The translations under genes were made by a program, and so were the position numbers. The notes beneath the pieces are model-generated. The model made no database searches and was not told where the DNA came from. It worked only from the letters and a program-made list of their open reading frames with translations. This document shows, one piece after another, positions 18,454-46,197 of a DNA stretch of 64,000 bases. How positions within the stretch are numbered: the stretch's first letter is position 1; each line of letters begins with the position of its first letter. The stretch is from Acidimicrobiia bacterium (lineage in GTDB: Bacteria; Actinomycetota; Acidimicrobiia; Acidimicrobiales; Poriferisodalaceae). The stretch spans positions 248,001 through 312,000 of the forward strand of contig JAJEEO010000012.1 of NCBI GenBank assembly GCA_022820925.1, read 5' to 3'.

Positions 18454-18526
18454 GGGGCTATAGCTCAGTTGGTAGAGCGCTTCCATGGCATGGAAGAGGT
18501 CAGGGGTTCAATTCCCCTTAGCTCCA
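18454..18526 (+). tRNA. tRNA-Ala (anticodon GGC)
   Basis: 73 nt cloverleaf: acceptor GGGGCTA/TAGCTCC with one G-T pair, D arm GCTCAGTTGGTAGAGC, anticodon stem CTTCC/GGAAG around loop ATGGCAT (anticodon GGC), and T arm AGGGG-TTCAATT-CCCCT. The discriminator is A and the CCA end is not encoded. It reads GCC/GCU alanine codons. Its last 19 bases are also the 3' end of the phosphatase gene on the other strand. Confidence 0.97.
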
Positions 18527-29897: not shown

Positions 29898-30030
29898 TCG
29901 CTTCCCCCCGGTTCGCTGCGACTCCTGGGAACTTGCCCGATGCGCATCTGGCCCGCTCGGCGACGCAGTCAGCGTCGAGCGGTGCCCTCCCAATGTACTG
30001 AACGCTGGATGGCCGAGTGCCTGTTGTGCA

Positions 30031-30696
30031 TCAGCCTCGGAGGCTCCAGTCGATTGGCTGGCGGCCGGCGGCTGCGAGGGCTGCATTGGCCCGGCTGAAC
30101 GGTTTGCTGCCGAAGAAGCCGTTGTGGGCGCTCAGCGGCGACGGATGGGCCGACTCGATGACCACGTGGCGAGTCAGGTCCACGAGCGCCTTCTTGCGGC
30201 GGGCGAATGCGCCCCACAGGATGAACACCACCCGCTCGGGCTTCGCGCTGACCGCCCGGATCACCTCATCGGTGAACGTCTCCCAGCCTGCCGAGCGGTG
30301 CGAGGCAGCTTGACGGGCACGCACGGTCAGGAACGCGTTCAGCAGCAGCACGCCTTGACTCGCCCACCCCTCCAGGTTTCCGTGCGACGGCGGCTCGATG
30401 CCGAGGTCGTCGCGCAGCTCGGCGAAGATGTTCTGCAGCGACGGCGGCTGCGCGATGCCGTGAGGCACCGAGAAGCACAGCCCGTGCGCCTGCCGGGGAC
30501 CGTGGTAGGGATCTTGGCCGAGGATCAGCACTTTGACTTCGGCGTAGGGCGTCAGGTGCAGCGCGGCGAAGACCTGATCGTGGGGCGGGTAGACGGCGCC
30601 CTGGGCACGCTCGTCGGCCACGAACTGCTGCAGGATCGGCCAGTACGGCTTCGAGAATTCTCCCCGCAGGATCGGGTTCCAGTCGGTGCGCGGCAT
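30031..30696 (-). CDS. ung: Uracil-DNA glycosylase
   Basis: 221 aa, standard for family 1 UDG, which removes uracil from DNA to start base excision repair. The catalytic water-activating Asp is in GQDPYHG, the Asn-containing strand is VLLLNAFLTV, the uracil-binding segment is FILWGAFA, and the DNA-intercalation loop is HPSPLSAHNGFFG. It starts at the ATG at 30696 (MPRTDWNPIL). It is encoded 18 bases downstream of the APH-like kinase on the same strand. Confidence 0.97.
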   Translation of the reverse strand: MPRTDWNPILRGEFSKPYWPILQQFVADERAQGAVYPPHDQVFAALHLTPYAEVKVLILGQDPYHGPRQAHGLCFSVPHGIAQPPSLQNIFAELRDDLGIEPPSHGNLEGWASQGVLLLNAFLTVRARQAASHRSAGWETFTDEVIRAVSAKPERVVFILWGAFARRKKALVDLTRHVVIESAHPSPLSAHNGFFGSKPFSRANAALAAAGRQPIDWSLRG

Positions 30697-30714
30697 GCCC
30701 GCGACAGCCCCGCG

Positions 30715-31785
30715 TTAGGAGATCGTCTCGGCGGCGGCGGCCGACAGCTCGATGCCCCGCCCGATGCGCGCCCGGTACAGGTCCAGATCGACATCATCGG
30801 CCGGTTTCTGGCCCCGCATGTAACGGGCGTACACGCCGTGGATGATGCAGGCCGACTTCCAGTGGTTGAAGCTGACGTAGTACGCCAAGTCGGACAGGTC
30901 GGCGCCGGTTTGCTGCTCGTAGCGCTCGACGAGGTCGGCGCGGCCGACGAATCCGTCCACCAAGGTCGGCGGGTCTGAGCCTTCCAGAATGTCGTCGCTG
31001 GCCTCGGTCCAGCTGTTCAGCGCGTAGGCGAAGTCGGCCAGCGGGTCGCCGAGCGTGGAGATCTCCCAGTCCAGCACCGCTTGGAGCTCGCCAGCGGGGT
31101 TGAACAGGCAGTTGTGCAGTCCGTAGTCGCCGTGCACCACCCGCGCTGGGCCCTGCGCAGGCTTGCGTTCTTGCAAGAAGTCGTGCAGCTCATGGGTGAC
31201 CGGCGTGTCGTATTGGGCTGATTCGGCCGAGGCTGTCCATGAGCGGTACCAGGTGCGGATCTGCCGCCCGACGTAGTCGTCCTTGCGGCCCAGTTCGCCC
31301 AGCCCGACATCGTCGGGATCCACCGAGTGGAGCGCCGCCAGCACGTCCATGAACGACATGCCGACGTGTGCCCGGCCCTCGGCGGTCAGGTGCTCGCGGG
31401 CGTCGGCAGACTCGAAGAGCGGCTTGCCCTCGACGTAGCTCATGACGTAGAAGTGCGCCCCGGTCACGTCTGGGCTCTCGCAATAGCCGTACGCAATGGC
31501 GACCGGCACGTCAGTCGAGCCGAGGCCGCTGATGATGGTGAACTCGCGCCCCATGTCGTGCGCCTTGGGCAGCAGCTCGCCCATCGGCGGGCGGCGCACG
31601 ACGGCGGTGGTGCCGTCTGCAGCGGTGAGCTTGTAGGTGAGGTTGCTGTGCCCGCCCTCGAGCTGGCTCCACTCGAACGGCGGCTCGAGGCCGTCCACGT
31701 TGGCGTCGATCCACGCCTCCACCGCGGGAACGTCATAACCGAGAATTCCCGTATCCGCAGCGCCGTCGTTCGCACCGTCCGTCAT
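30715..31785 (-). CDS. APH-like phosphotransferase (ACAD10/11 type)
   Basis: 356 aa from the ATG at 31785, with a GAGGGGAC ribosome binding site; the frame extends upstream without support. Kinase-like motifs: LEGGHSNLTYKL (glycine loop), VVHGDYGLHNCLF (catalytic loop with HGD) and AVLDWEISTLGDPLAD (metal-binding DWE). This branch is often found near acyl-CoA dehydrogenases and in ACAD10/11 phosphorylates 4-hydroxyacyl-CoAs. No acyl-CoA dehydrogenase is immediately adjacent here. An aminoglycoside-resistance role is not suggested. Confidence 0.85.
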   Translation of the reverse strand: MTDGANDGAADTGILGYDVPAVEAWIDANVDGLEPPFEWSQLEGGHSNLTYKLTAADGTTAVVRRPPMGELLPKAHDMGREFTIISGLGSTDVPVAIAYGYCESPDVTGAHFYVMSYVEGKPLFESADAREHLTAEGRAHVGMSFMDVLAALHSVDPDDVGLGELGRKDDYVGRQIRTWYRSWTASAESAQYDTPVTHELHDFLQERKPAQGPARVVHGDYGLHNCLFNPAGELQAVLDWEISTLGDPLADFAYALNSWTEASDDILEGSDPPTLVDGFVGRADLVERYEQQTGADLSDLAYYVSFNHWKSACIIHGVYARYMRGQKPADDVDLDLYRARIGRGIELSAAAAETIS

Positions 31786-31954
31786 CTCGCCTGTCCCCTC
31801 TGCGTCGCAACACTCGCTGCGTGCCAGCGCGGTCCGCACACACTACGGCAACTGCCTCACGCGGCAGCGGGCTGTGCACAGCGTCGACCGGTGACCTGCG
31901 ACCGCAGCGAAACCGACACCGGCCGCGCAGAGATCGACCGGTAGCTTCGGCGCC

Positions 31955-33427
31955 ATGGACCCCGCTGATCCAGACGTGCCCCCGCCGCTGACCTCGCCGC
32001 CGCCGCACATGACGCCCGAGGAGTTCCGCGAGCACGGGCGGGCGGTCATCGACTGGATCGCCGACTACTGGGAGCGCATCGAGTCGCTGCCGGTGGCCTC
32101 GACGGTCCAGCCGGGCGACATCCGCGAGCTGCTGCCCGAGGCCGCGCCCGAAGAACCCGAGCCGTTCGACGACCTGCTCGCGGATCTCGAACGGGTGGTC
32201 GTGCCGGGCGTGACCCACTGGCAGCACCCGGGCTGGTTTGCCTACTTCCCCGCCAACAACTCGCCGCCATCGGTGCTGGCAGACACGGTGTCGGCCGGAT
32301 TGGGACTGATCGGGCTGCTGTGGGCTGCCTCGCCGGCGCTGACCGAGGTCGAGAGCCACATGCTGGACTGGCTCGTCGACCTGCTCGACCTGCCCGGGCA
32401 CTGGAAGACGACGGCCAGCGGCGGCGGCGTCCTGCAGGGCAGCGCGTCAGACGCCACCCACGTCGCGCTCGTGGCAGCCCGCCATCGTGCCGCCGAACGC
32501 AGCGGCCAACCCGCGACGCAGATGGTCGCCTACACCTCGGCGCAGGCGCACAGCTCGGTGGAGAAGGGCGCCAACGTGGCCGGTTTCGGCGTGGTGCGCC
32601 TCATCGACACCGACGAGAGCCTGGCGATGAGGCCTGACGCACTGGCGTCGGCAATCGAGGCCGACCTCGCCGCGGGGCTGGTGCCCACGTTTGTGGGCTC
32701 GACCATCGGCACCACCGGCACTACTGCTGTCGACCCCGTGCGGGCCATCGCAGACGTTGCGATCGAACACGACCTGTGGCATCACGTCGATGCGGCGTAT
32801 GCGGGCACGGCGATGATCTGTCCCGAGTTCCGCCATCACCAGGACGGCATCGAGTTCGTCGACAGCTACGTGTTCAACCCGCACAAGTGGATGATGGTGA
32901 ACTTCGACTGCTCGGCCTTCTACGTCGCCGATAAAGCGGCGCTGACTGACGCCCTGTCGATCGACCCGCCCTACCTGAGCAACACCCAGAGCGATGCGGG
33001 CAACGTGATCGACTACCGGAACTGGCAGGTGCCGCTCGGCCGGCGCTTCCGGGCACTCAAGCTGTGGTGGGTGCTGCGCAGCTACGGCGCGACGGGGATC
33101 CGCCAGATGGTGCGCCATCACGTGGCCATGGCCCAGGAGTTCGCGCAGCTGATCAGCGAGGACTCCCGGTTCGAGATCGTGGCCCCGCACCCGTTCTCGC
33201 TGGTGTGCTTTCGCTGCCGGGCGGCCGACGACTCACCGGCCGCGCACGACGCCGCAGACAGTGCCACTGATGCCATCGCGGCCGCGGTGAACACCAGCGG
33301 CATCGCCTACCTGACGCCCTCGAAGCTGGACGGTCGCAGCATCATCCGCGTTGCCGTCGGCCAGTCGCGCACCGATCGATCCCAGATCGAATTGCTCTGG
33401 AAGTTGATCTGCGAGTCGGCGGTCTAG
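31955..33427 (+). CDS. Group II pyridoxal-dependent amino acid decarboxylase
   Basis: 490 aa, the size of aromatic-L-amino-acid decarboxylases. Visible motifs: the substrate-side segment HPGWFAYFPANNSPPSVLAD, the PLP-binding HVDAAYAG with the Asp that contacts the pyridine nitrogen, and Lys311 in NPHKW, which forms the Schiff base. The expected reaction is amine formation from Trp, Phe, Tyr/DOPA or a relative; the exact amino acid cannot be read. A Pro-rich N-terminus (DPADPDVPPPLTSPPP) precedes the fold. It is convergent with hisC, 20 bases away. Confidence 0.92.
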   Translation: MDPADPDVPPPLTSPPPHMTPEEFREHGRAVIDWIADYWERIESLPVASTVQPGDIRELLPEAAPEEPEPFDDLLADLERVVVPGVTHWQHPGWFAYFPANNSPPSVLADTVSAGLGLIGLLWAASPALTEVESHMLDWLVDLLDLPGHWKTTASGGGVLQGSASDATHVALVAARHRAAERSGQPATQMVAYTSAQAHSSVEKGANVAGFGVVRLIDTDESLAMRPDALASAIEADLAAGLVPTFVGSTIGTTGTTAVDPVRAIADVAIEHDLWHHVDAAYAGTAMICPEFRHHQDGIEFVDSYVFNPHKWMMVNFDCSAFYVADKAALTDALSIDPPYLSNTQSDAGNVIDYRNWQVPLGRRFRALKLWWVLRSYGATGIRQMVRHHVAMAQEFAQLISEDSRFEIVAPHPFSLVCFRCRAADDSPAAHDAADSATDAIAAAVNTSGIAYLTPSKLDGRSIIRVAVGQSRTDRSQIELLWKLICESAV

Positions 33428-33447
33428 ACCGAGCCTGATTCAGCCAG

Positions 33448-34539
33448 TCAGCCGACAGGCTCGAAGGATCCCAACGCGGCCAGCAGTCGGTCGTTCTGGG
33501 CCGGGGTGCCCAGGCTGATGCGCACACCCTCGCCTTCGAACGGGCGGGTCACCAGGCCCTGCTTCTCCAGACGGACGAACAGGTCCGTCGCCCCGTCGCC
33601 CACCGGCAGGTACACGAAGTTGGCCTGGCTCGGCACCACCGGCCAGCCCAGATCGGACATGGCTGCGCTCACCCGGTCGCGCTCGGCCAGGATGCCGGCG
33701 ACGCGTCGTTCGAGCTCCGTACTGGCCTGCGGCTCGAGCGAGGCCATCGCCGCGACCTGCGCGATCCCGCTGACGATGAACGGCAGCGCCACCTTGTCGA
33801 GCGCGCCGATGACGTCGGGGTGCCCGACGCCGTAGCCGACGCGTAGGTTGGCCAAGCCGTACGCCTTGGAGAACGTGCGCAGCACCAGGGCGTTGGGGTG
33901 CTCGGGCAGCAACGTGGGGATCGGGTCGGCCACGGCGGGATCGGTGACGAATTCCCGGTAGGCCTCGTCGATCACCACGATGACGTCGGGCGGCACTGCG
34001 GCCAGCAGACGCTGCAGCTCCGCCGATGTGCACACCGTGCCGGTGGGGTTGTTCGGCGTGGAGAGCACGACGATCTTGGTGCGGTCGGTCACCGCGGCTG
34101 CGACACCGTCGAGATCGAATGCGTGGTCGACCAGCGGCACCGTGACTGCCTCGGCGCCTGAGATGGCGCAGAACACCGGGTGCACCTCAAACGAGCGCCA
34201 GGGGAACACCACCTCGTCGCCGGGATCGACATAGGAAGCGAAGAGCTGCTGCAGCACGCCCACCGAACCGGAGCCAACAGTGACCTCGTCGAGCTCGACG
34301 CCGTGCCGGTCGGCCAGCGCCTCGCGCACCTGGGTGCAGCGATGGTCGGGATAGCGATTCATGCCCAGGGCGGCCTCGGACACTGCTTTGGCAACCGAAG
34401 GCAGCGGCTCGTTGGCGTTCTCGTTGGATGCCAGCTTGATCGCCTCGGCCAGGTTGTGCTCGGCCTCGGCCTGCGCCGCAGAACGACCCGGCTTGTACTG
34501 CGGGAGGCCCTCCACCGCCGCTCTCGGTCGTCCGATCAT
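33448..34539 (-). CDS. hisC: Histidinol-phosphate aminotransferase-type enzyme
   Basis: 363 aa, PLP fold type I. PLP-binding segments are STPNNPTGT, IDEAYREF and FSKAYGLANLRVGYG, where the Lys forms the Schiff base. It transaminates imidazole-acetol phosphate in His synthesis; some members take aromatic amino acids instead. No other his genes are near, and the adjacent decarboxylase raises the possibility of an aromatic aminotransferase role. GGAGGAG lies upstream of the ATG at 34539. Confidence 0.88.
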   Translation of the reverse strand: MIGRPRAAVEGLPQYKPGRSAAQAEAEHNLAEAIKLASNENANEPLPSVAKAVSEAALGMNRYPDHRCTQVREALADRHGVELDEVTVGSGSVGVLQQLFASYVDPGDEVVFPWRSFEVHPVFCAISGAEAVTVPLVDHAFDLDGVAAAVTDRTKIVVLSTPNNPTGTVCTSAELQRLLAAVPPDVIVVIDEAYREFVTDPAVADPIPTLLPEHPNALVLRTFSKAYGLANLRVGYGVGHPDVIGALDKVALPFIVSGIAQVAAMASLEPQASTELERRVAGILAERDRVSAAMSDLGWPVVPSQANFVYLPVGDGATDLFVRLEKQGLVTRPFEGEGVRISLGTPAQNDRLLAALGSFEPVG

Positions 34540-34671
34540 GCGCTCGCTCTCCTCCGAGACGAGACCCGCCGATGGCTCGCAGCGGTGCCCGGCGGCAAAC
34601 TAGCGGCCCCAACCCCTCGAGGCGGCGGTTGGCCCGGCCTCCCGCGAGGGCGGTGATCGGCCTGGCGGCTG

Positions 34672-35580
34672 CTACAGGCGGCGATTGGCACGGTCCCCGG
34701 GCGCGGAGACCGAGCGGAATCCCTCGGCGACCTGTTCCATCGTGGCGAACGCCACGCCCGGCCGGGACGCCATGTGATCGATGAGCCGCTCGAGCATGAG
34801 CATCCGGCTGCCGCGCCCGATGCACTGGGGATGCATGGTGAGCACGAACACCCCGCTGCCGACCCGCTCGTACAGGTAGTCGAACTCGGCCGACCACACG
34901 TCAAAGACGTGATCGGGCGTGCGCAGCCCTTGCACCGTGGGCCCGTCGTAGCTGAAGTACGGCCAGTCGTCGAGGATCCAGTCGAACGGCAGCTGCACCA
35001 GGTCGACCTCGTCGCCGAATCGGTGCGGGCCGTCCGTGGTGGGCACATCGCCGAGCCGGCACCACGTGGGTGCGTAGTCGTTGCGCGCCATGGAGGAGTC
35101 GTAGGAAAAGCCGTGCTCGATGAGCAGGCTGATCCAGCGGTCGCCGCAGTTGCCGCCCGGCACGCGGTGCCCCACGGGCGGTCCGCCTGCGAGCCGCTCG
35201 AGGCAGTCCATGGAGCGCGTCAGGATGGCCCGCTCGTCGGCTTCGTCCCGCTTCGATGAGGGCGCTTCGTGGCAGTAGCCGTGGTAGCCCACCTCGTGCC
35301 CGTCCGAGGCCACCCTCGCGCAGACATCGCCGAAGGTGTCGATGGTGTGGCCGGGGATGAACCACGTGGACGGGAGGGAGCGCTCATCGAGCAGGTCGAG
35401 CAGCCGGTGCGCGCCGATCGACGCAAATTCGCCCCGGGCCGTCAGATTGGGCGACCGTGAGCCCCGCGGGCCGGTCCAGATCGAGATCGCGTCGAAGTCG
35501 AAGCTCAGACAGACCGTGACCGGGCCATGAGCGCCGTTGGAGGCCCCGTTGGATGCAGTAGCGCCGTGTGACAAGCTCAT
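34672..35580 (-). CDS. Polysaccharide deacetylase family protein
   Basis: 302 aa, NodB-like carbohydrate esterase 4 fold. Motif 1 is SFDFDAISIW, then TWFIPGHTIDTF with a metal-binding His. HEVGYHGYCHE holds motif 2 histidines, and RVPGGNCGD follows. It lacks a signal peptide, so it is probably cytoplasmic and closer to PuuE-like allantoinases or imidase-like members than to cell-wall deacetylases. The N-terminus (residues 1-18, with two SNGA-type segments) is low-complexity and the true start may be a few codons later. The start is divergent with the CoA-transferase at 35682. Confidence 0.82.
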   Translation of the reverse strand: MSLSHGATASNGASNGAHGPVTVCLSFDFDAISIWTGPRGSRSPNLTARGEFASIGAHRLLDLLDERSLPSTWFIPGHTIDTFGDVCARVASDGHEVGYHGYCHEAPSSKRDEADERAILTRSMDCLERLAGGPPVGHRVPGGNCGDRWISLLIEHGFSYDSSMARNDYAPTWCRLGDVPTTDGPHRFGDEVDLVQLPFDWILDDWPYFSYDGPTVQGLRTPDHVFDVWSAEFDYLYERVGSGVFVLTMHPQCIGRGSRMLMLERLIDHMASRPGVAFATMEQVAEGFRSVSAPGDRANRRL

Positions 35581-35681
35581 ATTCGGACCCTACTGAACCC
35601 CCGTCTGAGCCCGCCACAGCAAGCACGGCGGCCCGCTCGTCGGCCCGGTGTGCCGGGGTCATCGGGCGGTACCGTGATCCG

Positions 35682-38057
35682 ATGCCTGGCCCGGCCGATG
35701 GAGCCGCCGAGACTGAACGGCCGCCGCTCGCAGGGATGCGTGTGCTGGAACTGGCCACCGGCATCGCCGGCCCGTATGCCGGACGTCTGCTGGCGGGCGC
35801 GGGGGCGACCGTGGTGAAGGTCGAACCGCCGGGCGGCGATCCTGCACGGCGCCAACCAGTCGACGACATCCCGCTGCGGCCCGATGAGATCAGCCCGCTG
35901 TTTGTCCATCTGAACGCGGGCAAGCTGAACTGCACCGCCGACAGCGTGGAGGAGACCTGGCCCGAGGTGGTGATCGCCAGCGACACGCTGGCCGGACTTG
36001 CCGGCGGAGCGTGGGATCCCCAGCGGACGGCCGCCCGTGCGGCCGAAGGCGAACGCGTGCCCAAGCTCGTGACGGTGACGGCCTGGGGTGCCGATGCCGC
36101 CGACCCTGGCGTCATCGCCGACGAGCTGCTGGTACAGACCGCCACCGGCTTCCTGGGCTTCAACGGCGACGAGGGCGCCGAGCCGCTGCGGCTCCCGGGC
36201 TGGCAGGCCCAGTACTGCGCAGGGGGTCTCACCGCGTGGGCTGCCCACCTCATCCGGCGGCGGCCCGAGACGCACATGGATGTGTCGTGGCTCGGGGCGC
36301 TGCTGACCGCCGTCGAGCTCTGCTACTGCGATTCGCTGCACTGCCAGCGGCGCCGGCCGCTGGTGGGGCCGCACCCGCCGACGGCGTATCCGTCAGGTGC
36401 CATCCGCTGCGCCGACGGCTACGTGTGCCCGGGCTCGATCCGGCGGGACGACTGGGAGATGCAGTGCCTGCACTTGGGTATGCCCGAGTGGATCGACGAC
36501 CCAGAGCTGAGCCACCGTCACCGCCGGGCCCGCCACATCGACAAGATCCGTGAGGTCATCGAGCCCTGGTATGCCGCCCGCACCAAGCGAGAGCTGTTCC
36601 AGTTCGCGCTGGAGACGCCGTGGGCGGTCGGCATGGTGATGACGCCGCTCGACGCCCTGGAAGACGAGCATCTCGCCGACCGGGGCTTCCTGGGTGAGGT
36701 CAAGACACCGGCGGGAACGGCCTTGGCGCCCATCCAGCCCTTCGCCGCGCCGAGCCTGCCCGTGGCGGGGCAACGAGTGAGCGATCAGGGTGCTGACAGA
36801 TGCCCGCCAATCGATGCCGCCCCGGTGGTGTTGCGACCGGCGCGCGAGCTGCGGGTGATCGAGATGACCATTGCCTGGGCCGGGCCGTACATCGGCAACC
36901 TGCTCACGCCGCTCGGCATCGACGTCATCAAGATCGAGGCGCAGAACCCATTCGACGGCTTCCGCACCCAGCGGCCCTACGACCATGGCATGGCGCCCGG
37001 CCTCGAACACCTAGTCCACGACAATCGCTTCTACGAGGCGGGCGGGCATTTCAACGCCGTCAACAAGGGCAAGCGCGACTGCGTCGTCACGCTCGCCACG
37101 CCCGAGGGCCGCGCCGCCTTCATGGAGCTGGTGCGCAACTGCGACGCCCTGGTCGCCAACTTCTCGGCCCACGTGCTGCCCCAGCTCGGGCTCGACTTCG
37201 AGACACTGGCCGAGGTCAATCCCCGCATCGTGTTGGTGCGCATGCCCGCGTTCGGCGTCGACGGCCCCTATGCGGGCGCGGTGGGCTTCGGCTCGATCAT
37301 CGAGGCCATGGGCGGGATGGGTCAGCGGCAGGGCTACGAGCACGAAGGCGCCCGCATCTCCAACATCTACTTCCCCGACCCGATCGCCGGCATCACCGCC
37401 GGTTTCGCCCTGCTGAGCGGCCTCCACCACGCGGAGCGCACCGGCCAGGGCATAGAGATCGACGTCTCCCAGCAAGAAGGAACCTGGCAGCACAGCGGCG
37501 AAGCACTCGTACTCGCCTCAACAGCAGGCCGAGACATCGGCCGCATGGGAAACCGAGAACCGAACACCTCCTGGAGCGGCTTCATCCAAGCCACAGACGG
37601 CTGGCTCGCCGTCATCGCCGACAGCAACCCGCACGATCCGCCCCTTGGCCAACACGCGGTCGACGTGATCCGCGGCTTGCTCGAAGAGATCAAGACCAAC
37701 GGCGGCAGGCCCGTCCGGACCAGTGCAGATTTGAACGCGAACCTGCGGCTCGCCGGTGCCCGCACCGAGTTCTGCTGGGACCCATGGACCGCACCCGACC
37801 ACCATCCAGTTGCCAATCGCATTGAGATCGTCGATCACCCAGTCACCGGCCCGATGCGTCACATTGCGTCCCCCTTCACCCTCGACGGCACCCGCCCAGC
37901 CCAAGCAGGCCCCTCTCCCCTGTTCGACCAACACACCGACGAAGTCATGGCCGAAGTAGCCGGCCTCAACGAGAAGCAGATCGCCGGCCTGCGCGCTGAC
38001 GGCCACATAGGAGGCAAGCTCCCCCCACCAGCCGAACTCGGCTTCGTCTACGACTGA
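35682..38057 (+). CDS. Two-domain family III CoA-transferase (second CaiB-CaiB fusion)
   Basis: About 791 aa from the ATG at 35682. Domain 1 spans about 15-370 (RVLELATGIAGPYAG) with the Asp equivalent in HMDVSWLG. Domain 2 starts near 385 (LRVIEMTIAWAGPYIGNLL) with the Asp in GIEIDVSQQEG. Domain 1 is shorter than usual, lacking part of the small domain (about 80 residues after the first Rossmann half), so only domain 2 may be fully active. The last 200 codons use noticeably more AA- and CA-ending codons than the rest. A 118-bp inverted repeat follows 20 bases after the stop. Confidence 0.88.
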   Translation: MPGPADGAAETERPPLAGMRVLELATGIAGPYAGRLLAGAGATVVKVEPPGGDPARRQPVDDIPLRPDEISPLFVHLNAGKLNCTADSVEETWPEVVIASDTLAGLAGGAWDPQRTAARAAEGERVPKLVTVTAWGADAADPGVIADELLVQTATGFLGFNGDEGAEPLRLPGWQAQYCAGGLTAWAAHLIRRRPETHMDVSWLGALLTAVELCYCDSLHCQRRRPLVGPHPPTAYPSGAIRCADGYVCPGSIRRDDWEMQCLHLGMPEWIDDPELSHRHRRARHIDKIREVIEPWYAARTKRELFQFALETPWAVGMVMTPLDALEDEHLADRGFLGEVKTPAGTALAPIQPFAAPSLPVAGQRVSDQGADRCPPIDAAPVVLRPARELRVIEMTIAWAGPYIGNLLTPLGIDVIKIEAQNPFDGFRTQRPYDHGMAPGLEHLVHDNRFYEAGGHFNAVNKGKRDCVVTLATPEGRAAFMELVRNCDALVANFSAHVLPQLGLDFETLAEVNPRIVLVRMPAFGVDGPYAGAVGFGSIIEAMGGMGQRQGYEHEGARISNIYFPDPIAGITAGFALLSGLHHAERTGQGIEIDVSQQEGTWQHSGEALVLASTAGRDIGRMGNREPNTSWSGFIQATDGWLAVIADSNPHDPPLGQHAVDVIRGLLEEIKTNGGRPVRTSADLNANLRLAGARTEFCWDPWTAPDHHPVANRIEIVDHPVTGPMRHIASPFTLDGTRPAQAGPSPLFDQHTDEVMAEVAGLNEKQIAGLRADGHIGGKLPPPAELGFVYD

Positions 38058-38077
38058 CGGAAACAGCGAGCAACCGA

Positions 38078-38195
38078 GGGGTGTGCGAGGGCAGGGGTAC
38101 CCGCGCGCAGTTATGCGGCGCCCCTGCGACACCTCGCCAGCCCACAGCGCGCCGCATCTGTTTGAAGCACGGGTGCCCCTGCCCTCGTACACCCC
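38078..38195. repeat. 118-bp compound inverted repeat (REP/MITE-like)
   Basis: Outer arms of 26 bases (38078-38103 and 38170-38195) pair at 24 of 26 positions; the arm starts GGGGTGTGCGAGGGCAGGGG. A second, perfect 9-bp pair (ATGCGGCGC at 38113-38121, GCGCCGCAT at 38149-38157) is nested within. The element fills most of the gap between the CoA-transferase and epoxide hydrolase genes. It carries no gene. It could be a mobile non-autonomous repeat or a strong transcription-end hairpin. Confidence 0.75.
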
Positions 38196-38230
38196 GGGCT
38201 GTCTCACACAGCCGGACTACCGTGCGCCCC

Positions 38231-39361
38231 ATGCAGATCGAACCGTTCCAGATCAACGTCCCAGACGAGCAGCTAGCAGATCTCAAGGACCGCCTGGCAA
38301 GAACCCGCTGGCCAGACGCCGAACCGGTGGAGGACTGGTCCCAAGGCATCCCCCTCGCCTACGTCCAGGAAGTCTGCGACTACTGGGCCAACACCTACGA
38401 CTGGCGGGCCAGCGAAGCCGCTCTCAACCGGTTCGACCAGTACATGGCCGATGTCGACGGCATGGGCGTGCACTTCATCCACGTCCGCTCCCCCGAGCCC
38501 GATGCGATGCCGATCGTCATCACCCACGGCTGGCCCGGCTCGGTGGTCGAGTTCCACAAGGTCATCGAGCCGCTCGCCGACCCGGTCGCGCACGGCGGCA
38601 ACGCATCTGATGCCTTCCACGTGATCTGCCCATCGCTGCCCGGGTACGGCTTCAGCGCCAAGCCGACCGAGCCCGGCTGGGGCATCGAGAAGATCGCCGA
38701 CTGTTGGGCCGAGCTCATGACCGGCCTGGGCTACGACCGCTTCGGCGCGCAGGGCGGCGACTGGGGATCAGCCGTCACCAGCGCACTCGGCAGCCGTCAC
38801 CCCGACCGCTGCATCGGAATCCACCTGAACATGGTGATGCGCGGCAGCCGCCCCAAGGACCGTGAGCCCAACGACGAGGAGATCTCAGCCCTTACCAAGG
38901 CCAAGCACTACAACGATTGGGACTCCGGCTATTCGAAGCAGCAGTCCACCCGCCCGCAGACCCTCGGCTACGGCCTCACCGATTCGCCTGCCGGGCAGGC
39001 GGCGTGGATCCTGGAGAAGTTCTGGGCGTGGACTGACTGCGACGGTCACCCGGAGAACGCGCTGGGCCGCGACGAGATGCTCGACAACGTCATGCTGTAC
39101 TGGCTGAATGCCAACGCAGCCTCGTCTGGCCGCCTGTACTGGGAGAGCTTCCGGCAGCTCCCCCGCATGACGGTGGACGTTCCCACCGGCGTTGCCAAGT
39201 TCCCCGCCGAGATCATCCCGCCGGTGCGGTCGTGGTCCGAGCCCATCTATTCCGACATCCGGCACTGGACCGATATGCCTGCAGGCGGTCACTTTGCGGC
39301 CTTCGAGCAGCCCGAGCTGTTCATTGACGACGTGCGCGCCTTCTTCAGCCTGCTCCGATGA
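38231..39361 (+). CDS. Epoxide hydrolase (alpha/beta-hydrolase, N-terminal EHN domain)
   Basis: 376 aa from the ATG at 38231. The N-terminal EHN segment (about 1-105: PFQINVPDEQLADLKDRLARTRWP) is followed by the alpha/beta-hydrolase core with the oxyanion HGWPGS (99-104), nucleophile Asp177 in GGDWGS, and a C-terminal GGHFAAFEQPE His. Microsomal-type epoxide hydrolases open epoxides to diols through an ester on the Asp. Nearby P450- and monooxygenase-type genes and the CoA ligase that follows fit breakdown of a terpenoid or similar compound. The ribosome binding site is weak. Confidence 0.92.
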   Translation: MQIEPFQINVPDEQLADLKDRLARTRWPDAEPVEDWSQGIPLAYVQEVCDYWANTYDWRASEAALNRFDQYMADVDGMGVHFIHVRSPEPDAMPIVITHGWPGSVVEFHKVIEPLADPVAHGGNASDAFHVICPSLPGYGFSAKPTEPGWGIEKIADCWAELMTGLGYDRFGAQGGDWGSAVTSALGSRHPDRCIGIHLNMVMRGSRPKDREPNDEEISALTKAKHYNDWDSGYSKQQSTRPQTLGYGLTDSPAGQAAWILEKFWAWTDCDGHPENALGRDEMLDNVMLYWLNANAASSGRLYWESFRQLPRMTVDVPTGVAKFPAEIIPPVRSWSEPIYSDIRHWTDMPAGGHFAAFEQPELFIDDVRAFFSLLR

Positions 39362-39398
39362 GCACCGGCTCACAGCGTCTGGCGCGGATTCGCCGCTG

Positions 39399-41072
39399 AT
39401 GGCAGCAGAGGTCGCCGAGCCGATGCTGCTCGGCAACACCATGGATCGGCCGTTGCTGGTCTCGAGCCTCATCTCGTATGCGGCGCGCAGCCATGCCAGC
39501 ACCGATGTGGTGGCCGTGGATTCGGCGGGCGTCACCACGCGCAGCAACTGGGGGACGGTGGCGGAGCGGGCCCATTCGGTCTCAGGGGCGCTGGTGGCCG
39601 ACGGGATCCGGCCCGGTGAACGCGTTGCCACCATTGCCTGTAACGACCACCGCCACCTGGAGGCCTACTACGGCATCACCGGAATCGGCGCCGTACTGCA
39701 CACCGTCAACCCGCGGCTCCACGACGACCAGCTGGCATTCATCCTGAACGACGCCGCCGACAGCGTGGTGCTCGTCGACCGATCGTTCATCGAGATTGCT
39801 GCGCGGCTCGCCCCGCGCACGCCGACGGTCCGCCGCTGGGTGGTGCTCGGCGGACTCGATGCGCCCGCTGGCCTGCCCGGCGAGATCGCGTACGAAGACT
39901 GGATCGCAGATGCACCGGGTCCCTCGGCGTGGCCCGACTTCGACGAGCGTGCGGCCGCAACGCTCTGCTACACGTCGGGCACCACCGGCAACCCCAAGGG
40001 CGTGCTGCAGAGCCACCGGTCGATCGTGCTGCAGACCTGGGCCACCTGCACCGGCGACGGCCACGACGTGCACTCGGGCCACGCCGTGCTCGGCACCGTG
40101 CCGATGTTCCACGTCAACGGCTGGGCACTGCCGTTCGCCACTGCGATGAGCGGCGCGAAGCTCGTGCTGCCGGGCCCCGACCTCAGCCCCGAGGCGCTTG
40201 TGAAGCTCATCGAAGCCGAGGACATCACGTTCTCGGCGGGAGTGCCCACGATCTGGCTCGGCGTGGTGCAGTACCTGCAGGACACGGGTCGAAGCGTGCC
40301 CTCACTCCAGAAGGTGGCCGTCGGCGGCTCGGCCGCGCCGCGGGTGCTCATCGACACCCTCGAGGACGACTACGGCGTCACGGTCAGCCACGTCTGGGGA
40401 ATGACCGAGATGACCCAAGGCACGTCGGGACGGTTCACGCACCGGGTCGAGCGCGCCAGCCGCGACGCCCAGCGCGACCGCCAGGCCAAAGCCGGCCGCG
40501 AGCTCTACGGCATCGAGCTGCGCGTGGTCGACGCCGACGGCAACGTCTTGCCCCGTGACGGGCGCAGCGTCGGCGAGATACAGGCACGCGGCCCGTGGAT
40601 GTGCGGCACGTACTACCTCGGCGAACTCGCCGACCCCGACGCTTTCGCCGACTCGCACCTGCAGCCCTCCGACGGCGGCTGGCTGCGCACGGGCGACGTG
40701 GGCGTACTCGACGCCGAGGGCTACCTGACGCTGACCGACCGATCAAAGGACGTCATCAAGAGCGGTGGCGAGTGGATCAGCTCGATCGAGCTCGAGAACG
40801 CTGCGCTTGTTGCGACCGGTGTGGCGGCCGCTGCGGTCATCGGCCTGCCGCACGAGCGCTGGGGCGAACGGCCGCTGCTCATCGTCGAACTCGCCGCCGG
40901 TGCCACCCTCGATGCCGGCGCCGTGCTCGATGCGGTCAAGCCCAAGGTGGCGTCGTGGTGGCTGCCTGACGACATCGTCGTCGTGCCCGAGATACCGCTG
41001 ACCGGCACCGGCAAGATCGACAAGAAGCTCCTGCGCACCCGATTCGCCGACCACACCTGGCCCTCGAAGTGA
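39399..41072 (+). CDS. AMP-forming acyl-CoA ligase
   Basis: About 557 aa from the ATG at 39399. The ANL-family P-loop YTSGTTGNPKG is at 191-201, WGMTEM binds the adenylate, GWLRTGDVG is the hinge and GTGKIDKKLLR holds the catalytic Lys. Members activate fatty or aromatic acids as acyl-AMP and then acyl-CoA. The type resembles long- or medium-chain acyl-CoA ligases (DUF4009-like C-terminus absent). It follows the epoxide hydrolase by 37 bases in the same direction. Confidence 0.93.
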   Translation: MAAEVAEPMLLGNTMDRPLLVSSLISYAARSHASTDVVAVDSAGVTTRSNWGTVAERAHSVSGALVADGIRPGERVATIACNDHRHLEAYYGITGIGAVLHTVNPRLHDDQLAFILNDAADSVVLVDRSFIEIAARLAPRTPTVRRWVVLGGLDAPAGLPGEIAYEDWIADAPGPSAWPDFDERAAATLCYTSGTTGNPKGVLQSHRSIVLQTWATCTGDGHDVHSGHAVLGTVPMFHVNGWALPFATAMSGAKLVLPGPDLSPEALVKLIEAEDITFSAGVPTIWLGVVQYLQDTGRSVPSLQKVAVGGSAAPRVLIDTLEDDYGVTVSHVWGMTEMTQGTSGRFTHRVERASRDAQRDRQAKAGRELYGIELRVVDADGNVLPRDGRSVGEIQARGPWMCGTYYLGELADPDAFADSHLQPSDGGWLRTGDVGVLDAEGYLTLTDRSKDVIKSGGEWISSIELENAALVATGVAAAAVIGLPHERWGERPLLIVELAAGATLDAGAVLDAVKPKVASWWLPDDIVVVPEIPLTGTGKIDKKLLRTRFADHTWPSK

Positions 41073-41144
41073 ACCTTTTGCTGCACCCGAAATCAGGCAG
41101 GTCCCCAGTAACATGGTTCGCCGGATAGGGCGCAAGGTGTTGTC

Positions 41145-41447
41145 ATGGCTGCAGGTCGCACGACGTTTGAGAAGCTGCAACGGGACCGGGCCAAGAAGGC
41201 AAAGGCCGAGGCCAAGCGAGCCAAGCGCATGGGCAAGGTCCCCCAGAGCGGTCCGCTGGTCAACGAGACACCCGAGCCCGAAGGCACGGGTGCCGTGCTC
41301 GACGGCAACCTCGACGAAGAGCTGTCGGCGGCTGATCTGATCCGCCTCGTCGAAGAGGTCCAGACCCAGTTCGACAACGACGAGATCAGCTTCGACGAGT
41401 ACGAGGAGCGCAAGATCGAGCTCCTCGCCCGCCTGCCCACCGACTGA
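41145..41447 (+). CDS. Small SHOCT-like protein of unknown function
   Basis: 100 aa. Residues 1-35 are a basic coiled-coil-like helix rich in Lys and Ala (FEKLQRDRAKKAKAEAKRAK). A short acidic linker follows, then a C-terminal SHOCT-like helix pair (DEISFDEYEERKIELLARL). Short actinobacterial proteins of this layout are widespread and uncharacterised; the basic N-terminus could bind nucleic acid or membrane. It is convergent with the methyltransferase gene, 34 bases away. Confidence 0.8.
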   Translation: MAAGRTTFEKLQRDRAKKAKAEAKRAKRMGKVPQSGPLVNETPEPEGTGAVLDGNLDEELSAADLIRLVEEVQTQFDNDEISFDEYEERKIELLARLPTD

Positions 41448-41481
41448 GCCGAACCAGCGCCTTCAGCTCGGCGGCACCGGC

Positions 41482-42078
41482 TCATCCGGTTCGCCGGTGA
41501 ATCGAGACGGCGTAGTCGCCGCCGCCGAAGGGGGCACCCTCCCATGTCGAGTAGCGGGCCTCGAGTTCCAGCCCGTTGCGCTCGGCGAGTGCGTCATACA
41601 CGTGCAGTGCCATGTAGCCGTCACTGAGCTGAAAGCCCGCCACCAGCGCGCCGCCAGGGCGCAAGTGTGCCGCGAGGTTGGCCACGACAGCCGCCTCGCT
41701 GCCGCGCTCGAGGAAGATCATCACGTTGCCCGCCGCGACGGCGGCATCGAACTGACGCCGTTCGTCGGCGTCGTCGCTCACGACGACGGCAGACAGGTCG
41801 CCTTGGATCCACGCAAGGTCGGGAGCCTTGTCGCGGGCCAAGTCGAGCATGGCCGGGTCGAGATCGACGCCCACGACGTCATAGCCGCGGCGAGCCAGCT
41901 CGATCGCCACCCGACCCGTTCCGCAGCCCGCGTCGAGCACGCTTGCTCCCGACTCAAGCAGCGAATCAACTAGATCGGCCTCGCCGTGGATGGATTCGCC
42001 CCGCGCGGCCAACTGGGCCCAGCGGTCGTCGTATGCCGCCCCGCGGGGAATGTCGCCTCGCTCGGACCAGCGGCTCAG
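41482..42078 (-). CDS. Class I SAM-dependent methyltransferase
   Basis: 198 aa if it starts at the CTG at 42078, whose CTGA overlaps the stop of the upstream enoyl-CoA hydratase gene. A TTG start at 42012 would remove YDDRWAQL, which belongs to the usual N-terminus of this group. No ATG or GTG exists in frame between the previous stop and the SAM motif. Motif I is VLDAGCGTGR (about 47-56), followed by GVDLDPAML and NVMIFLE. It transfers a methyl group from SAM to an unknown substrate. The start codon is uncertain; the family is clear. Confidence 0.8.
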   Translation of the reverse strand: MSRWSERGDIPRGAAYDDRWAQLAARGESIHGEADLVDSLLESGASVLDAGCGTGRVAIELARRGYDVVGVDLDPAMLDLARDKAPDLAWIQGDLSAVVVSDDADERRQFDAAVAAGNVMIFLERGSEAAVVANLAAHLRPGGALVAGFQLSDGYMALHVYDALAERNGLELEARYSTWEGAPFGGGDYAVSIHRRTG

Positions 42079-42857
42079 CGGTCCTCCCAGACGGGGTCAC
42101 GCTTCTCCGCGAATGCGGAAGCGCCCTCGATGGCGTCGGCGGAACCGAACACTTCCTCCATCTCCGGCCGCTGGTACTCCCAGAAGCCGTCCTCGGACAC
42201 ACCCAGCACATCGCGGATCAGGCGCTTCGAGGCGCGCACTCCCATCGGCGCGTTGCGCGCAATACGCTCAGCGATCTCGACTGCGACGTTCACTGCCTCG
42301 CCGCGCGGGCAGACGCGGTTCACCATGCCGTGCTGGTGGGCCACCTCAGCGGTGATCGGCTCGGCGGTCAATGCCATTTCCATGGCCAGGCTGTAGGGCA
42401 GCTGTCGCGGCAGCCGCAACAGCGCGCCAGCGCCAGCGAACAGGCCCACACCCACTTCGGGGATGCCGAGCATCGTGCCTTCGGACGCCACGATGAGATC
42501 GCACGACAGAGCCACCTCCAGCCCGCCTGCCAGCGCGAAGCGCTCCACCGCCGCGATGAGCGGCTTGGACGCGCTCTTCTCGGTGATGCCGGCAAAGCCC
42601 CGCTCGGGCGGATTGGGCATGCCTGCGAGGCCGCCCCCCTCCACGAATGCCTTGAGGTCCATGCCGGCACTGAAGCCGCGCCCCGCCCCGGTGAGCACCC
42701 CGACCCGCGCATCGGGATTGGCGTCCAGCGCTTCGAGCGCCTCGCCCAGTGCCACCGACAACGCCATGTTGAACGCGTTCATCGCATCAGGGCGGTTGAG
42801 CGTCAGGATCTGCACGTAGCCGCGCTGCTCGACGAGGACGAGGGGTTCTTCGCTCAC
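42075..42857 (-). CDS. Enoyl-CoA hydratase/isomerase family protein
   Basis: 260 aa crotonase. The start MSEEPLVLVEQRGYVQILTL is the family N-terminus. Oxyanion-hole segments are FSAGMD (about 62) and AGGLE (about 110). The position of the catalytic Glu is occupied by VGVGLFAGAGALL, so one of the two usual glutamates seems absent; isomerase or other crotonase chemistry is possible. It is upstream of the methyltransferase on the same strand and divergent from the esterase. Confidence 0.9.
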   Translation of the reverse strand: MSEEPLVLVEQRGYVQILTLNRPDAMNAFNMALSVALGEALEALDANPDARVGVLTGAGRGFSAGMDLKAFVEGGGLAGMPNPPERGFAGITEKSASKPLIAAVERFALAGGLEVALSCDLIVASEGTMLGIPEVGVGLFAGAGALLRLPRQLPYSLAMEMALTAEPITAEVAHQHGMVNRVCPRGEAVNVAVEIAERIARNAPMGVRASKRLIRDVLGVSEDGFWEYQRPEMEEVFGSADAIEGASAFAEKRDPVWEDR

Positions 42858-42932
42858 GGAAACTCCTTCATTTCAGGCGCCGACAGTAGCCTCGCGACGC
42901 GACCAGGCACGATACGGAACCCGGAGCGCGGA

Positions 42933-44471
42933 ATGAACGGCAGCGGCGACGAGGTGGGCGACCTGCTGGCGCGGATCGAGATGGCGGAACCGTCGGAGGC
43001 GCCGCTGCTGGTCCAATTGCTGGCGCGGTCGCCCAATCTGCAGCAGGCAGACGGGCCGTTGGCCTTGCGGGCTGCCCGGGCACTCAGCGTCCATGGCGGG
43101 CCCCAGACGCTGTCGATTGCGGGTGAGCTGGCCGCTCGCGCACACCGTTCGGGGCAGGCAGGCGCCGGGGTCGTGTTCGCCGAGTGCGCCGACAAGATGA
43201 GCCTGCTGAGCGGGCGGCCCCAGCAGTTCGGCACCGTGGTCACCCAGCACCTGGGCGACCTCGTGCTGGCACCGGTGGACAGCTCGGTCGACGACGAGTC
43301 CCGCAATCGCATCGGCCTGCCGACGCTGGCACAACGGCGTGCAGAGATCGACCGCCGCAACCGTGAGCTCAGCCGCGAACGGGCCGACACTCCGGGCCTG
43401 CCGCCCGGCCAGCGCATGTGCCGGGTCTGGCGCGACCCGTCGCCGGGGTTTCTCGGGTCGCGACTCGACGCCGATCCGGCCGGCTGCTGGGCCGACGGCG
43501 ACGAGCTCACCTTCGTCTGCCGCAGCGATGCCGCCGGCGTGCTGCCTGGGCCGGTCATCGAGCTGCCGATGTGGCGCATCGAAGAGAACGGCGTCAACGT
43601 TGACGGCGGCGATCTGTGGGCGCTCAGCGTGCGCATCGAACGTCTGCCGGAAGCCGTGATCGGCTACGGCTTCTGGCCGCTTGACGACGCGGGCAGCCTG
43701 CTGGGCGGCCAGCGCGGGCCGGTGCCCCATCGCTTCCGCGGTCCCGACGCGCCAGCCGAGCTGCCCTCACACCCAGACGACGAGCTGCGCGGCGCTACCC
43801 AGGTGCACACCATTGACAGCACGGCGCTGCGCTCCAAGCGCACGGTGACGGTGTACCTGCCGCCGGGTCACTCGGTCGCCGAGCGGCTGCCGGTCTTGTA
43901 TGCGACCGACGGCGGCATGATCGGCCCGTACATCCGGCGCCTTGACGCGGGTATCACCAACGAGACCGTGCCCCGCTTCGTGCTCGTGGCAGCCCACTCG
44001 GCGCCCATGGGCGGATATGGCAACGAGCGCGCCATGGAGTACCTGCCGGGCTTCGACAACGACCGATTCGACCGCCACCAGCGCTTCTTCGTCGAGGAAC
44101 TGACGGCTTGGGCGACCCAGACGTTCGGCGTCTCGGAGGATCGCAGCGAGCGCGGCGTGTTCGGCGCCTCTGACGGCGGCGGCCATGCGCTCGCTGTCGG
44201 GCACATGCACCGTGACAAGTTCGGTCACGCCATGGCCTATTCCACCGGCATGCCGCCGAACGAGCAGATGAGCTGGAACGCCGCCGAGGCGCCATTCGTG
44301 CACCTGTGCGCCGGCACGCTCGAAGGCGGTTTCCACCAGGCCACCGAGGCGTGGGCGGCCTGGCTGCACTTCGCAAAGTCGCCCCACGAATGGACCGAGC
44401 GTGTGTGCGGGCATGACCTCATCCAGTGGATCGAGGAGTTGCCCCGAGCCGTTGCACGCGCCTGGGGTTGA
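42933..44471 (+). CDS. DUF6624-like domain fused to an enterochelin-esterase-type hydrolase
   Basis: 512 aa from the ATG at 42933. Residues 1-150 are helical, with AECADKMSLLSGRPQQFGTVV (83-103), which resembles the DUF6624 signature. A beta-sandwich-like middle (about 165-270) follows. From about 300 it is an esterase of the enterochelin esterase/tributyrin type (KRTVTVYLPPG, ATDGGM, GVFGASDGGG with the nucleophile Ser). No signal peptide is present. Such esterases cleave ester or carbonate bonds; the substrate is unknown. Its stop overlaps the next gene by 4 bases (TTGA). Confidence 0.75.
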   Translation: MNGSGDEVGDLLARIEMAEPSEAPLLVQLLARSPNLQQADGPLALRAARALSVHGGPQTLSIAGELAARAHRSGQAGAGVVFAECADKMSLLSGRPQQFGTVVTQHLGDLVLAPVDSSVDDESRNRIGLPTLAQRRAEIDRRNRELSRERADTPGLPPGQRMCRVWRDPSPGFLGSRLDADPAGCWADGDELTFVCRSDAAGVLPGPVIELPMWRIEENGVNVDGGDLWALSVRIERLPEAVIGYGFWPLDDAGSLLGGQRGPVPHRFRGPDAPAELPSHPDDELRGATQVHTIDSTALRSKRTVTVYLPPGHSVAERLPVLYATDGGMIGPYIRRLDAGITNETVPRFVLVAAHSAPMGGYGNERAMEYLPGFDNDRFDRHQRFFVEELTAWATQTFGVSEDRSERGVFGASDGGGHALAVGHMHRDKFGHAMAYSTGMPPNEQMSWNAAEAPFVHLCAGTLEGGFHQATEAWAAWLHFAKSPHEWTERVCGHDLIQWIEELPRAVARAWG

Positions 44472-45397
44472 GCGCCGATCCCGTGACCGCAGCGGCGGCC
44501 GAACCCCCCGATCGCGTCCACGCCGGGGTGAGCACCGAAGACGGACGCATCGCCGTCGACGGCGTGGGCATCGCCTGGCGACGCTTCACGCCGGCCAGCG
44601 ACGCCACCGGGGAGCATGGGCCGGCCGGCGAGCGACCCACTGTCGTGATGCTGCACGAGGGCTTGGGCAGCATCACGCAGTGGCGCGACCTGCCCAGCGT
44701 GCTGGCGCGGCGTTGCGGTCTCGATGTGGTGGCTTATGACCGCGGCGGCTACGGGCGCTCCGATCCCCTGCCGCAGACCTATGCCGACGGCTTCATGGAA
44801 CGCGAGGCCGCAGACGTGCTGCCCACGGTGCTCGAACAGCTCGACGTGGATCGGCCCATCCTGGTTGGGCACAGCGACGGGGCTTCCATCGCCCTCATCG
44901 CCGCCGCCACAGGCTCGGTGAGCCCGCTCGGCGTCGCGGTCATCGCGCCCCACACCTTCATCGAGGATGTCTGCATCGAGGGCATCCGTGCCATCGACGG
45001 TCAGCGCGAGCGGGTCATCTCGGGACTGGCCCGCCACCACGACCACCCCCGCCTCGCGTTCGAGCGCTGGCGGGACGCCTGGCTGACACCTCGGTTCAGC
45101 CTGTGGGACATGCGGCCCTTGCTCGAAGGCATCGACTGCGCGGTACTGGTACTGCAGGGTGACCGAGACCAGTACGCCACCGATGCGCAGGTGTGGACGA
45201 TCACCGAGCGGGTGAGGGGGGCCGAAGGTCACCTTTTGGCCGACTGCGGCCACGTCGCCCACCGAGATCAGCCCGAGCTGGTGACGGGTTACCTCGTCGA
45301 GTTCGTCTCAACTTGCGCGCTGGCGCCGAAGCTGCCGGACAGCGCTTCGAGCGCGTCGGCTGCGATGAGATCGGGGTCTTCGAACGGTCCGAAGTGA
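44468..45397 (+). CDS. Alpha/beta-hydrolase
   Basis: 309 aa from the TTG at 44468, in TTGA overlap with the upstream esterase stop; GTG at 44483 is an alternative. Oxyanion HEGLGS, the strand-turn YDRGGYGRSDPL and the nucleophile elbow GHSDGAS (Ser) are seen, with the catalytic Asp in QGDRDQYA and a His near DCGHVAHRDQPE. It resembles non-heme haloperoxidase/hydrolase members. Its last 109 bases overlap the 3' end of the convergent hydrolase gene, and the last 40 residues are Ser-rich and probably disordered. Confidence 0.85.
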   Translation: MSADPVTAAAAEPPDRVHAGVSTEDGRIAVDGVGIAWRRFTPASDATGEHGPAGERPTVVMLHEGLGSITQWRDLPSVLARRCGLDVVAYDRGGYGRSDPLPQTYADGFMEREAADVLPTVLEQLDVDRPILVGHSDGASIALIAAATGSVSPLGVAVIAPHTFIEDVCIEGIRAIDGQRERVISGLARHHDHPRLAFERWRDAWLTPRFSLWDMRPLLEGIDCAVLVLQGDRDQYATDAQVWTITERVRGAEGHLLADCGHVAHRDQPELVTGYLVEFVSTCALAPKLPDSASSASAAMRSGSSNGPK

Positions 45398-46197
45398 CTC
45401 AGTTGCGGGTAGGTGATGAGCCACGAGTTGACGAGCGCCTCGTGTGCAGGCACGCCGATATCCGCATCTTCGCGTGGCGGTAGCTGCAGTCCCCTGCCGA
45501 TGGCCACGTGCGTCTGGCTGCCGTCGAGCAAGGCGGTCGTCGAGACCCACTCACCGTCGTAGGTCGCCGCTTCGTCTGCCGCACGGCACCTCAGCCGGAT
45601 GGTGCCGTCGGGCAGATCCTCGAACCCGTTCGCGATATAACTCGCCAGGGCATCGGCCCTCATGGACCCGAAAGGCGGGCGAGGGGCGTACCGCTCGAAG
45701 GCCTCACCGCGTGACGCGAACGTCTCCCGCCGCTTGTGAGTGAATTCGAGCAGCGGGTTCTCACCGGGGCCGAACCGGTCCTCGACGCGCCACACGACCG
45801 GCTCGTAGCCGTACATTCGCCGGATCGTGCCGGGTCGCCGTGCATCGGCCAGCAGCAGCGTGGCCGCGCCTATCGAGTGGCCGACGCAGTCCAGCTCTCC
45901 AGCGGCGATGCCCAAGTGATCGACGATCGCCAGCAGGTCATCTGCCAGCGTCGTCCACAGGAAGTCGCGGTCCGCCGGCGGCGGGCTCCAGCCATGTGCC
46001 CGCAGGTCGGGCGCCCAGACGGTGAAGTGCTCGACGAGGCGGCTCGCAAGCGGGCCGTAGACCCGACCGTTGAATCCGGTTGCGTGCACGAACAGCAGCG
46101 GCGGGCCGTCGCCCCCCAAGCAATGCAGCGCGAGCTCGACCCCGTCGGCGACTTCGACCATCGCCGGCGCAGGCATGCCGCTGCTGGAGGTAGTCAT
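45289..46197 (-). CDS. Alpha/beta-hydrolase
   Basis: 302 aa from the ATG at 46197. The frame extends upstream to 46227 without support. VHATGFNGR holds the oxyanion loop, GHSIGAA is the nucleophile elbow with Ser, and PQLSHFGPFEDPD carries the catalytic His. The start is divergent with the DsbA-like gene, 47 bases away. The 3' end overlaps that of the gene at 44468. It is homologous in layout to the hydrolase at 58565 (compare SHFGPFEDP with SHFGPMENG), suggesting related substrates. Confidence 0.88.
   Translation of the reverse strand: MTTSSSGMPAPAMVEVADGVELALHCLGGDGPPLLFVHATGFNGRVYGPLASRLVEHFTVWAPDLRAHGWSPPPADRDFLWTTLADDLLAIVDHLGIAAGELDCVGHSIGAATLLLADARRPGTIRRMYGYEPVVWRVEDRFGPGENPLLEFTHKRRETFASRGEAFERYAPRPPFGSMRADALASYIANGFEDLPDGTIRLRCRAADEAATYDGEWVSTTALLDGSQTHVAIGRGLQLPPREDADIGVPAHEALVNSWLITYPQLSHFGPFEDPDLIAADALEALSGSFGASAQVETNSTR

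Follow-up and report, generated by a model that had tools for sequence, protein, structure and literature searches.

Interspersed palindromes in bacteria tend to be regarded either as parasites or as terminators that arose by accident. The attC sites of integrons keep structure over sequence, form a strand-specific hairpin bounded by terminal boxes RYYYAAC and GTTRRRY, and lie behind a gene. In the Correia elements of Neisseria, the inverted repeats are about 26 bp long, and these arms are terminal repeats shared among copies and accompanied by a TA duplication. Two publications describe the Correia elements, or NEMIS, as about 100–155 bp long and as giving a hairpin RNA that is cut by RNase III, and report that ERIC sequences in Yersinia are co-transcribed and alter message stability (PMC2229807, PMC10969869). 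For REP sequences, PMC3733652 gives a length of 20–40 bp, together with a tag reading GTAG or CGTC, and reports G.T pairs in the stems; REP counts for Acidimicrobium ferrooxidans are given in PMC12306157. The element analysed here, no published description of which was found in the literature searched, its 15-base core included, belongs to a family that is scattered between genes in one genus and is rare outside it.

Results

The window, a stretch of 64,000 nucleotides, contains at 38078–38195 a 118-base inverted repeat that folds on the + strand (Table 1). The initial annotation had described 26-base arms with a 9-bp stem nested inside, and both are borne out: after inversion 24 of the 26 arm positions match, the remaining two forming G.T pairs on the + strand, and all nine inner pairs form. 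In an inverted-repeat search, the arms could be extended to 29 nt at 90%. Between the two stems lie further features that go beyond that description: a C.A mismatch and two bulges, TT and TTGAA. The RNA fold of 38076–38196 has an energy of −89.5 kcal/mol against −51.4 ± 3.7 kcal/mol for 200 dinucleotide shuffles (z −10.4), none of which folded as low. Codon-usage gene calls agree with the earlier view that the element is non-coding, though open reading frames cross it. Its unlikeness to a terminator also holds: the GC-rich hairpin followed by a T run that marks an intrinsic terminator is absent, there being no T tract, and a terminator scan of 30000–46000 did not pick the element. Rfam returned no match for it in the window, in 37950–38350 at a permissive threshold or at five loci; a tRNA gene (RF00005) was recognized at 18454–18526. 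The upstream gene is a single 773-aa reading frame holding two PF02515 stretches.

Table 1. Parts of the window element and its flanking genes (window coordinates)
Feature	Position	Strand	Remarks
Upstream gene, CoA-transferase family III (PF02515)	35736–38057	+	Stop 38055–38057, 20 nt before element
5′ outer arm, 26 nt	38078–38103	+	Sequence copy-specific, pairing retained
5′ half of conserved internal loop, CGCGCAGTT	38104–38112	+	(Near-)invariant in genus; also in g66 and G493
Inner stem, 5′ side, ATGCGGCGC here	38113–38121	+	Other complementary inner stems elsewhere; none in g66
Terminal loop, variable	38122–38148	+	
Inner stem, 3′ side, GCGCCGCAT	38149–38157	+	
3′ half of conserved internal loop, CTGTTTGAAGCA	38158–38169	+	TTGAA bulge; A of C.A mismatch
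3′ outer arm	38170–38195	+	Sole remnant at same site in G001, G004, G008
Downstream gene, epoxide hydrolase (PF06441, PF00561)	38231–39361	+	ATG 38231, 35 nt past element

Copies in the genus measure 118–123 nt. Each has an outer stem some 26 bp long whose sequence varies among copies, an inner stem of one of several types (among them ATGAAG, ATGCGG, ATGTGG, TTTGCGA and CGCAG) and a terminal loop of roughly 25–32 nt. Between the stems lies a conserved asymmetric internal loop, with CGCGCAGTT on its 5′ side and CTGTTTGA(A)GCACGG on its 3′ side, the latter reading CATGTTTGA or CTGTCTGA in some copies; its conserved unpaired elements are TT, TTGAA and the C.A mismatch. The arms at unrelated sites have a common consensus in alignment, though they vary copy by copy, and the 5′ flank is often CGAG. 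In a second genus, g66, copies of 74–78 nt combine the conserved core with unrelated stems; they are without an inner stem, and TCT caps the loop. A 118-nt copy in genome G493 keeps the loop, while both of its stems are unrelated in sequence; it occupies a gap between convergent genes, presumably those for an acyl-CoA dehydrogenase and lepA as named from their translations. At two g66 loci (L075 and L076), a second GC-rich inverted repeat, AACCGGGG...CCCCGGTT, lies just 3′ of the short element and precedes a CDP-alcohol phosphatidyltransferase-like gene, the family match coming from the copy at L074.

A DNA search of the source genome gave 12 matches, namely ten full copies, an adjacent 3′ fragment and the window copy read in reverse; a lone copy restricted to this gap, which the initial annotation had named as counting against a mobile repeat, is thus not what was found. 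With a covariance model made from 17 copies, the family was detected in 10 of the 11 genus genomes at 2–10 copies per occupied genome, the exception being G001, which is 84% complete. Searching 57 sources with this model yielded 102 rows over both strands and, once the better strand was kept, 54 places: 48 full copies in the genus and six in g66. By our own count, grouped by synteny, the 48 fall at about 16 sites; one more genus place, the 49th, lies in G010 and is incomplete where it meets a run of N. Two contigs of G005 (C37 and C100; loci L143 and L144) begin inside element copies. Contig ends of this kind make the copy numbers in fragmented assemblies lower bounds.

At the rank of family, 10 of 39 genomes were positive, all of them in the genus and none among the 28 outside it. 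The order and class searches were run with stricter filters, at which weak matches are lost: 9 of 298 genomes were positive in the order, five in the genus and four in g66, which belongs to another family (4 of 9 genomes positive there), and 2 of 395 in the class, the source genome and G493, the latter from a further family. Scanning about 85,000 named species genomes with a sequence pattern returned 23 loci, 16 of which, all in seven Acidimicrobiia assemblies, take the fold of the element (−74.8 to −97.3 kcal/mol); the other seven, from other phyla, fold poorly (−26.7 to −51.2 kcal/mol) and were taken as chance, as was a 24-nt match in G026 that the covariance model did not recover. Three patterns gave no matches in viral contigs, and phages and plasmids held no match to the element. 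Contig C10 of the source genome, 296 kb out of 3.28 Mb, carries seven of the ten own copies, and seven family sites lie in the ~41 kb at 240–281 kb (L038, L039, L040), all in the same orientation, five occupied in G000 and two in relatives only. A replication-linked orientation was considered, since these sites are on the − strand, two copies, at 79 and 119 kb, are on the + strand and the skew has its minimum near 180 kb; the idea was ruled out, as dnaA is on another contig and the copy on C16 has the opposite relation to skew.

The 16 genus sites divide into six co-directional sense, two co-directional antisense, four convergent and four divergent, as compared with 677 co-directional, 141 convergent and 138 divergent gene intervals over 1.13 Mb of the source genome. 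The site classes are thus near the genomic make-up, with no clear class preference and a weak sense bias in orientation. Gene calls for this count came from a home-made caller, some of whose short calls are doubtful; one small doubtful ORF at L107 was set aside, and synteny was used for L110, where the upstream gene is off the contig. The side of the element that faces a stop codon is usually nearer the gene, mostly at about 9–35 nt, and at convergent sites the gaps go down to 12 and 9 nt. The flanking genes have no function in common (CoA-transferase, epoxide hydrolase, TIM, asd, lysC, NAD synthase, TetR, LUD), and some sites are inside likely operon pairs, lysC-asd and LUD-LUD.

We queried the fold by covariation. 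Over 41 pairs in 17 sequences, 97.6% of cells are paired, as compared with 34–54% for control structures slid along the alignment. Double-sided changes occur in 20 of the 41 pairs and the covariation score is 0.402 versus 0.145 when shuffled, neither value being reached in 500 shuffles; these counts are not probabilities, since the 17 sequences share ancestry and one of them supplied the structure. Covariation beyond column make-up, as expected of a structured RNA, is present in the 17-sequence set and among the window-site orthologues.

Mismatches in the outer stem are strongly asymmetric. In 1245 cells from 48 genus copies, read on the strand defined by the core, we counted 118 G.T and 8 A.C mismatches and 44 others. 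Strand-symmetric neutral mutation would give G.T and A.C in equal numbers, and the observed imbalance thus identifies the + strand as the strand that folds. Two wobbles are habitual: of the 54 rows, 39 have T.G at pair 21 and 28 have G.T at pair 22. With both pairs removed, the asymmetry persists (G.T 23 versus A.C 2, p 1.9e-5) in a reduced set of 19 rows, comprising 17 for the 16 genus sites and two for g66; one genus site was entered twice, its arms being unrelated. The wobble asymmetry fits a folded RNA and a folded single-stranded DNA alike. Stem sequences drift while the fold and the central motif stay constant, which suggests that the element works as a folded RNA (or single-stranded DNA) and not as an ordinary terminator.

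The window site is occupied in seven genomes (G000, G002, G009, G003, G007, G005 and G010). Relative to G000, element identity is.833–.959 and identity at fourfold sites of the upstream and downstream flanking genes is.538–.812, the element being higher in all six orthologue comparisons (element; fourfold upstream/downstream: G002.900;.767/.801. G009.892;.812/.772. G003.959;.760/.770. G007.875;.749/.784. G005.851;.632/.651. G010.833;.538/.721). Four pairs show double-sided changes among the seven orthologues, a number reached in 4 of 500 shuffles; the corresponding counts are 0 of 500 for paired cells and for score and 235 of 500 for further pair types. Homogenization by other copies is unlikely, since the inner-stem type of the window copy is confined to the window site among the copies read.

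In G001, G004 and G008, the element is missing from this site and its 3′ arm is left directly behind the stop codon; function there is accordingly dispensable. G006, with its flanks on different contigs, was left out. The three genomes are not sisters in the flanking-gene trees: G004 pairs with G010 in both, G001 pairs with G003 in the upstream-gene tree (88/91, below the starred level), and G008 groups with G002 and G009 in the downstream-gene tree. The alleles that retain the 3′ arm alone had raised the idea of arms derived from the target by snap-back copying, which we did not adopt, given the consensus common to the arms of unrelated sites. Asymmetric deletion fits these alleles better, though it does not fully explain a boundary shared by three non-sister genomes.

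Sites have been gained and lost between species, and the comparison of occupied with empty sites that the initial annotation had proposed finds both filled and unfilled orthologous sites in congeners. Among unoccupied alleles, a short 3′ end is left at c2 in G006 and at c5 in G004; no remnant is present at c2 in G004 and G009, at c9 in G003 and G008, or at the L111 site in G009. At c9, the arms of G000 are unrelated to those of G006 and G009, pointing to independent arrival. At c4, the 5′ arm is identical in six species apart from the first flanking base, and the inner hairpin is of type A in two species and of type B in four; the same arm with a switched inner type indicates that copies recombine. 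At C10:240782–240952 (L136, copy c6), a full copy has the 3′ half of a second one immediately behind it, and the complete form of this second copy occupies the corresponding locus in G007 (L121); G003 has the 3′ half alone (L141), and G005 a second 3′ piece after the 3′ half. Broken copies and 3′ pieces start in or near the conserved 3′ core. A 5′-truncated retro-insertion was considered for solitary 3′ pieces, few of which occur in the sequence scanned. No consistent target duplication was found in eight sites compared, where the intergenic flanks have diverged. Y1_Tnp was found in 0 of 11 genus genomes, the source genome included, and in 5 of 14 control genomes, and no autonomous partner element was seen in the loci read. 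The element is short, non-coding, multicopy and interspersed, as a MITE is; its arms are copy-specific, not shared terminal inverted repeats matching an autonomous element.

Discussion

Taken together, dispersal and turnover combined with a fold that is kept after arrival favour an interspersed hairpin acting in RNA. From the sequence evidence, we give a probability of about one half to a dispersed ERIC/REP-like hairpin, often positioned behind stop codons, that has spread and would retain a function at the RNA level. When transcribed, the hairpin would act as folded RNA at the ends of, or between, coding regions. Read-through transcripts would carry it, its GC-rich stem may block or invite RNases and so determine where neighbouring messages end or how stable they are, as reported for ERIC and REP, and the invariant loop may be where a trans-acting protein docks. 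Copies could have reached unrelated sites via a mobilizing activity or via recombination between copies. Against this reading stand the mismatch asymmetry, which selection on single-stranded DNA would equally produce, the weakness of the sense bias among the sites, and the loss of the window copy from three congeners. A wider proposal, which we put forward tentatively and hold to be rather doubtful, is that the element is at once a structured-RNA class and a genomic colonizer: a class old enough to be found, with entirely different stems, in three families of a single bacterial class, whose invariant loop would be bound by a dedicated protein and whose copies would have spread behind stop codons and then been selected for their effect on transcripts.

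The resemblance to a non-autonomous mobile repeat that the initial annotation had noted is upheld in part. Copies are multiple and interspersed, with filled and unfilled sites, as that idea has it, but the arms covary and are not shared terminal repeats. A more specific account supposes that the + strand folds when single-stranded and that a putative recombinase or transposase recognizes the loop, much as RAYT recognizes REP or IntI recognizes attC, so that the fold is kept for mobility only. We regard this as possible but rather unlikely. The dispersal over unrelated sites, the orthologous sites left unoccupied in relatives, the independent arrival of unrelated arms in one gap (G000 versus G006/G009), the strand-specific fold and the broken copies beginning in or near the conserved 3′ core all speak for it, but all 11 genus genomes are without the Y1 transposase, target-site duplication was not seen in the filled and unfilled pairs compared, whose flanks have diverged, and the viral, phage and plasmid sequences searched contain no copy. 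The long-settled window copy is moreover conserved above fourfold sites and has accrued compensatory changes; mobility alone needs neither, and a mere parasite would not need that conservation.

Two simpler accounts fare worse. An ordinary or bidirectional transcription terminator, repeated by chance, is suggested by sites just past stop codons and between convergent genes, but the missing T tract, the terminator scan that passes over the element, the 4 of 16 sites between divergent genes and those within likely operon pairs (lysC-asd, LUD-LUD) make it improbable, and the invariant internal loop would be superfluous for termination. A neutral palindrome, with arms kept complementary by template switching or by repair of one arm from the other and without selection, would give near-perfect arms of copy-specific sequence, and recombination is visible at c4, where a constant 5′ arm in six species accompanies a switched inner type. 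Such repair predicts that G.T and A.C are equally rare, against the 118 and 8 seen; this imbalance, the habitual wobbles at pairs 21 and 22, and an invariant loop left unexplained render the account about equally improbable. Stem and loop sequence are decoupled in this family, and covariation, wobble asymmetry and orthologous sites can hence be read together. The family thereby offers a way to test whether mobility or an RNA function accounts for the retention of a dispersed repeat, and its conserved loop is a motif with which to seek a protein partner.

Comparison with the described systems places the element beside, but not within, several of them. It shares with integron attC sites the precedence of structure over sequence, the strand-specific fold and a location behind a gene; it differs in having no terminal boxes, as judged from alignment by eye, and in that its copies are dispersed and form no cassette array. 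With Correia/NEMIS elements it has in common the length range and the 26-bp arms, but here the arms differ among copies and no duplication was seen. Like REP, BIME and REPIN sequences, which PMC3733652 describes as hairpin repeats outside genes, many of them behind coding regions and thought to be transcribed, it is an intergenic hairpin; at 118 bp, with neither GTAG nor CGTC as a tag and with Y1_Tnp (RAYT) missing from all 11 genus genomes, it falls outside REP on tag, length and RAYT, and its arms set it apart from a classical MITE. It resembles the enterobacterial ERIC (IRU, RU-1) sequences of 127 bp in length class, interspersion, inverted ends and mostly intergenic location, a likeness drawn from their description. 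ERIC sequences belong to other taxa, the present element has no Rfam match, and its 2–10 copies per occupied genome compare with the tens to hundreds given for ERIC in PMC10969869. Unlike those of ERIC, the stems of the present element have drifted apart through compensatory changes, with the asymmetric loop between them invariant.
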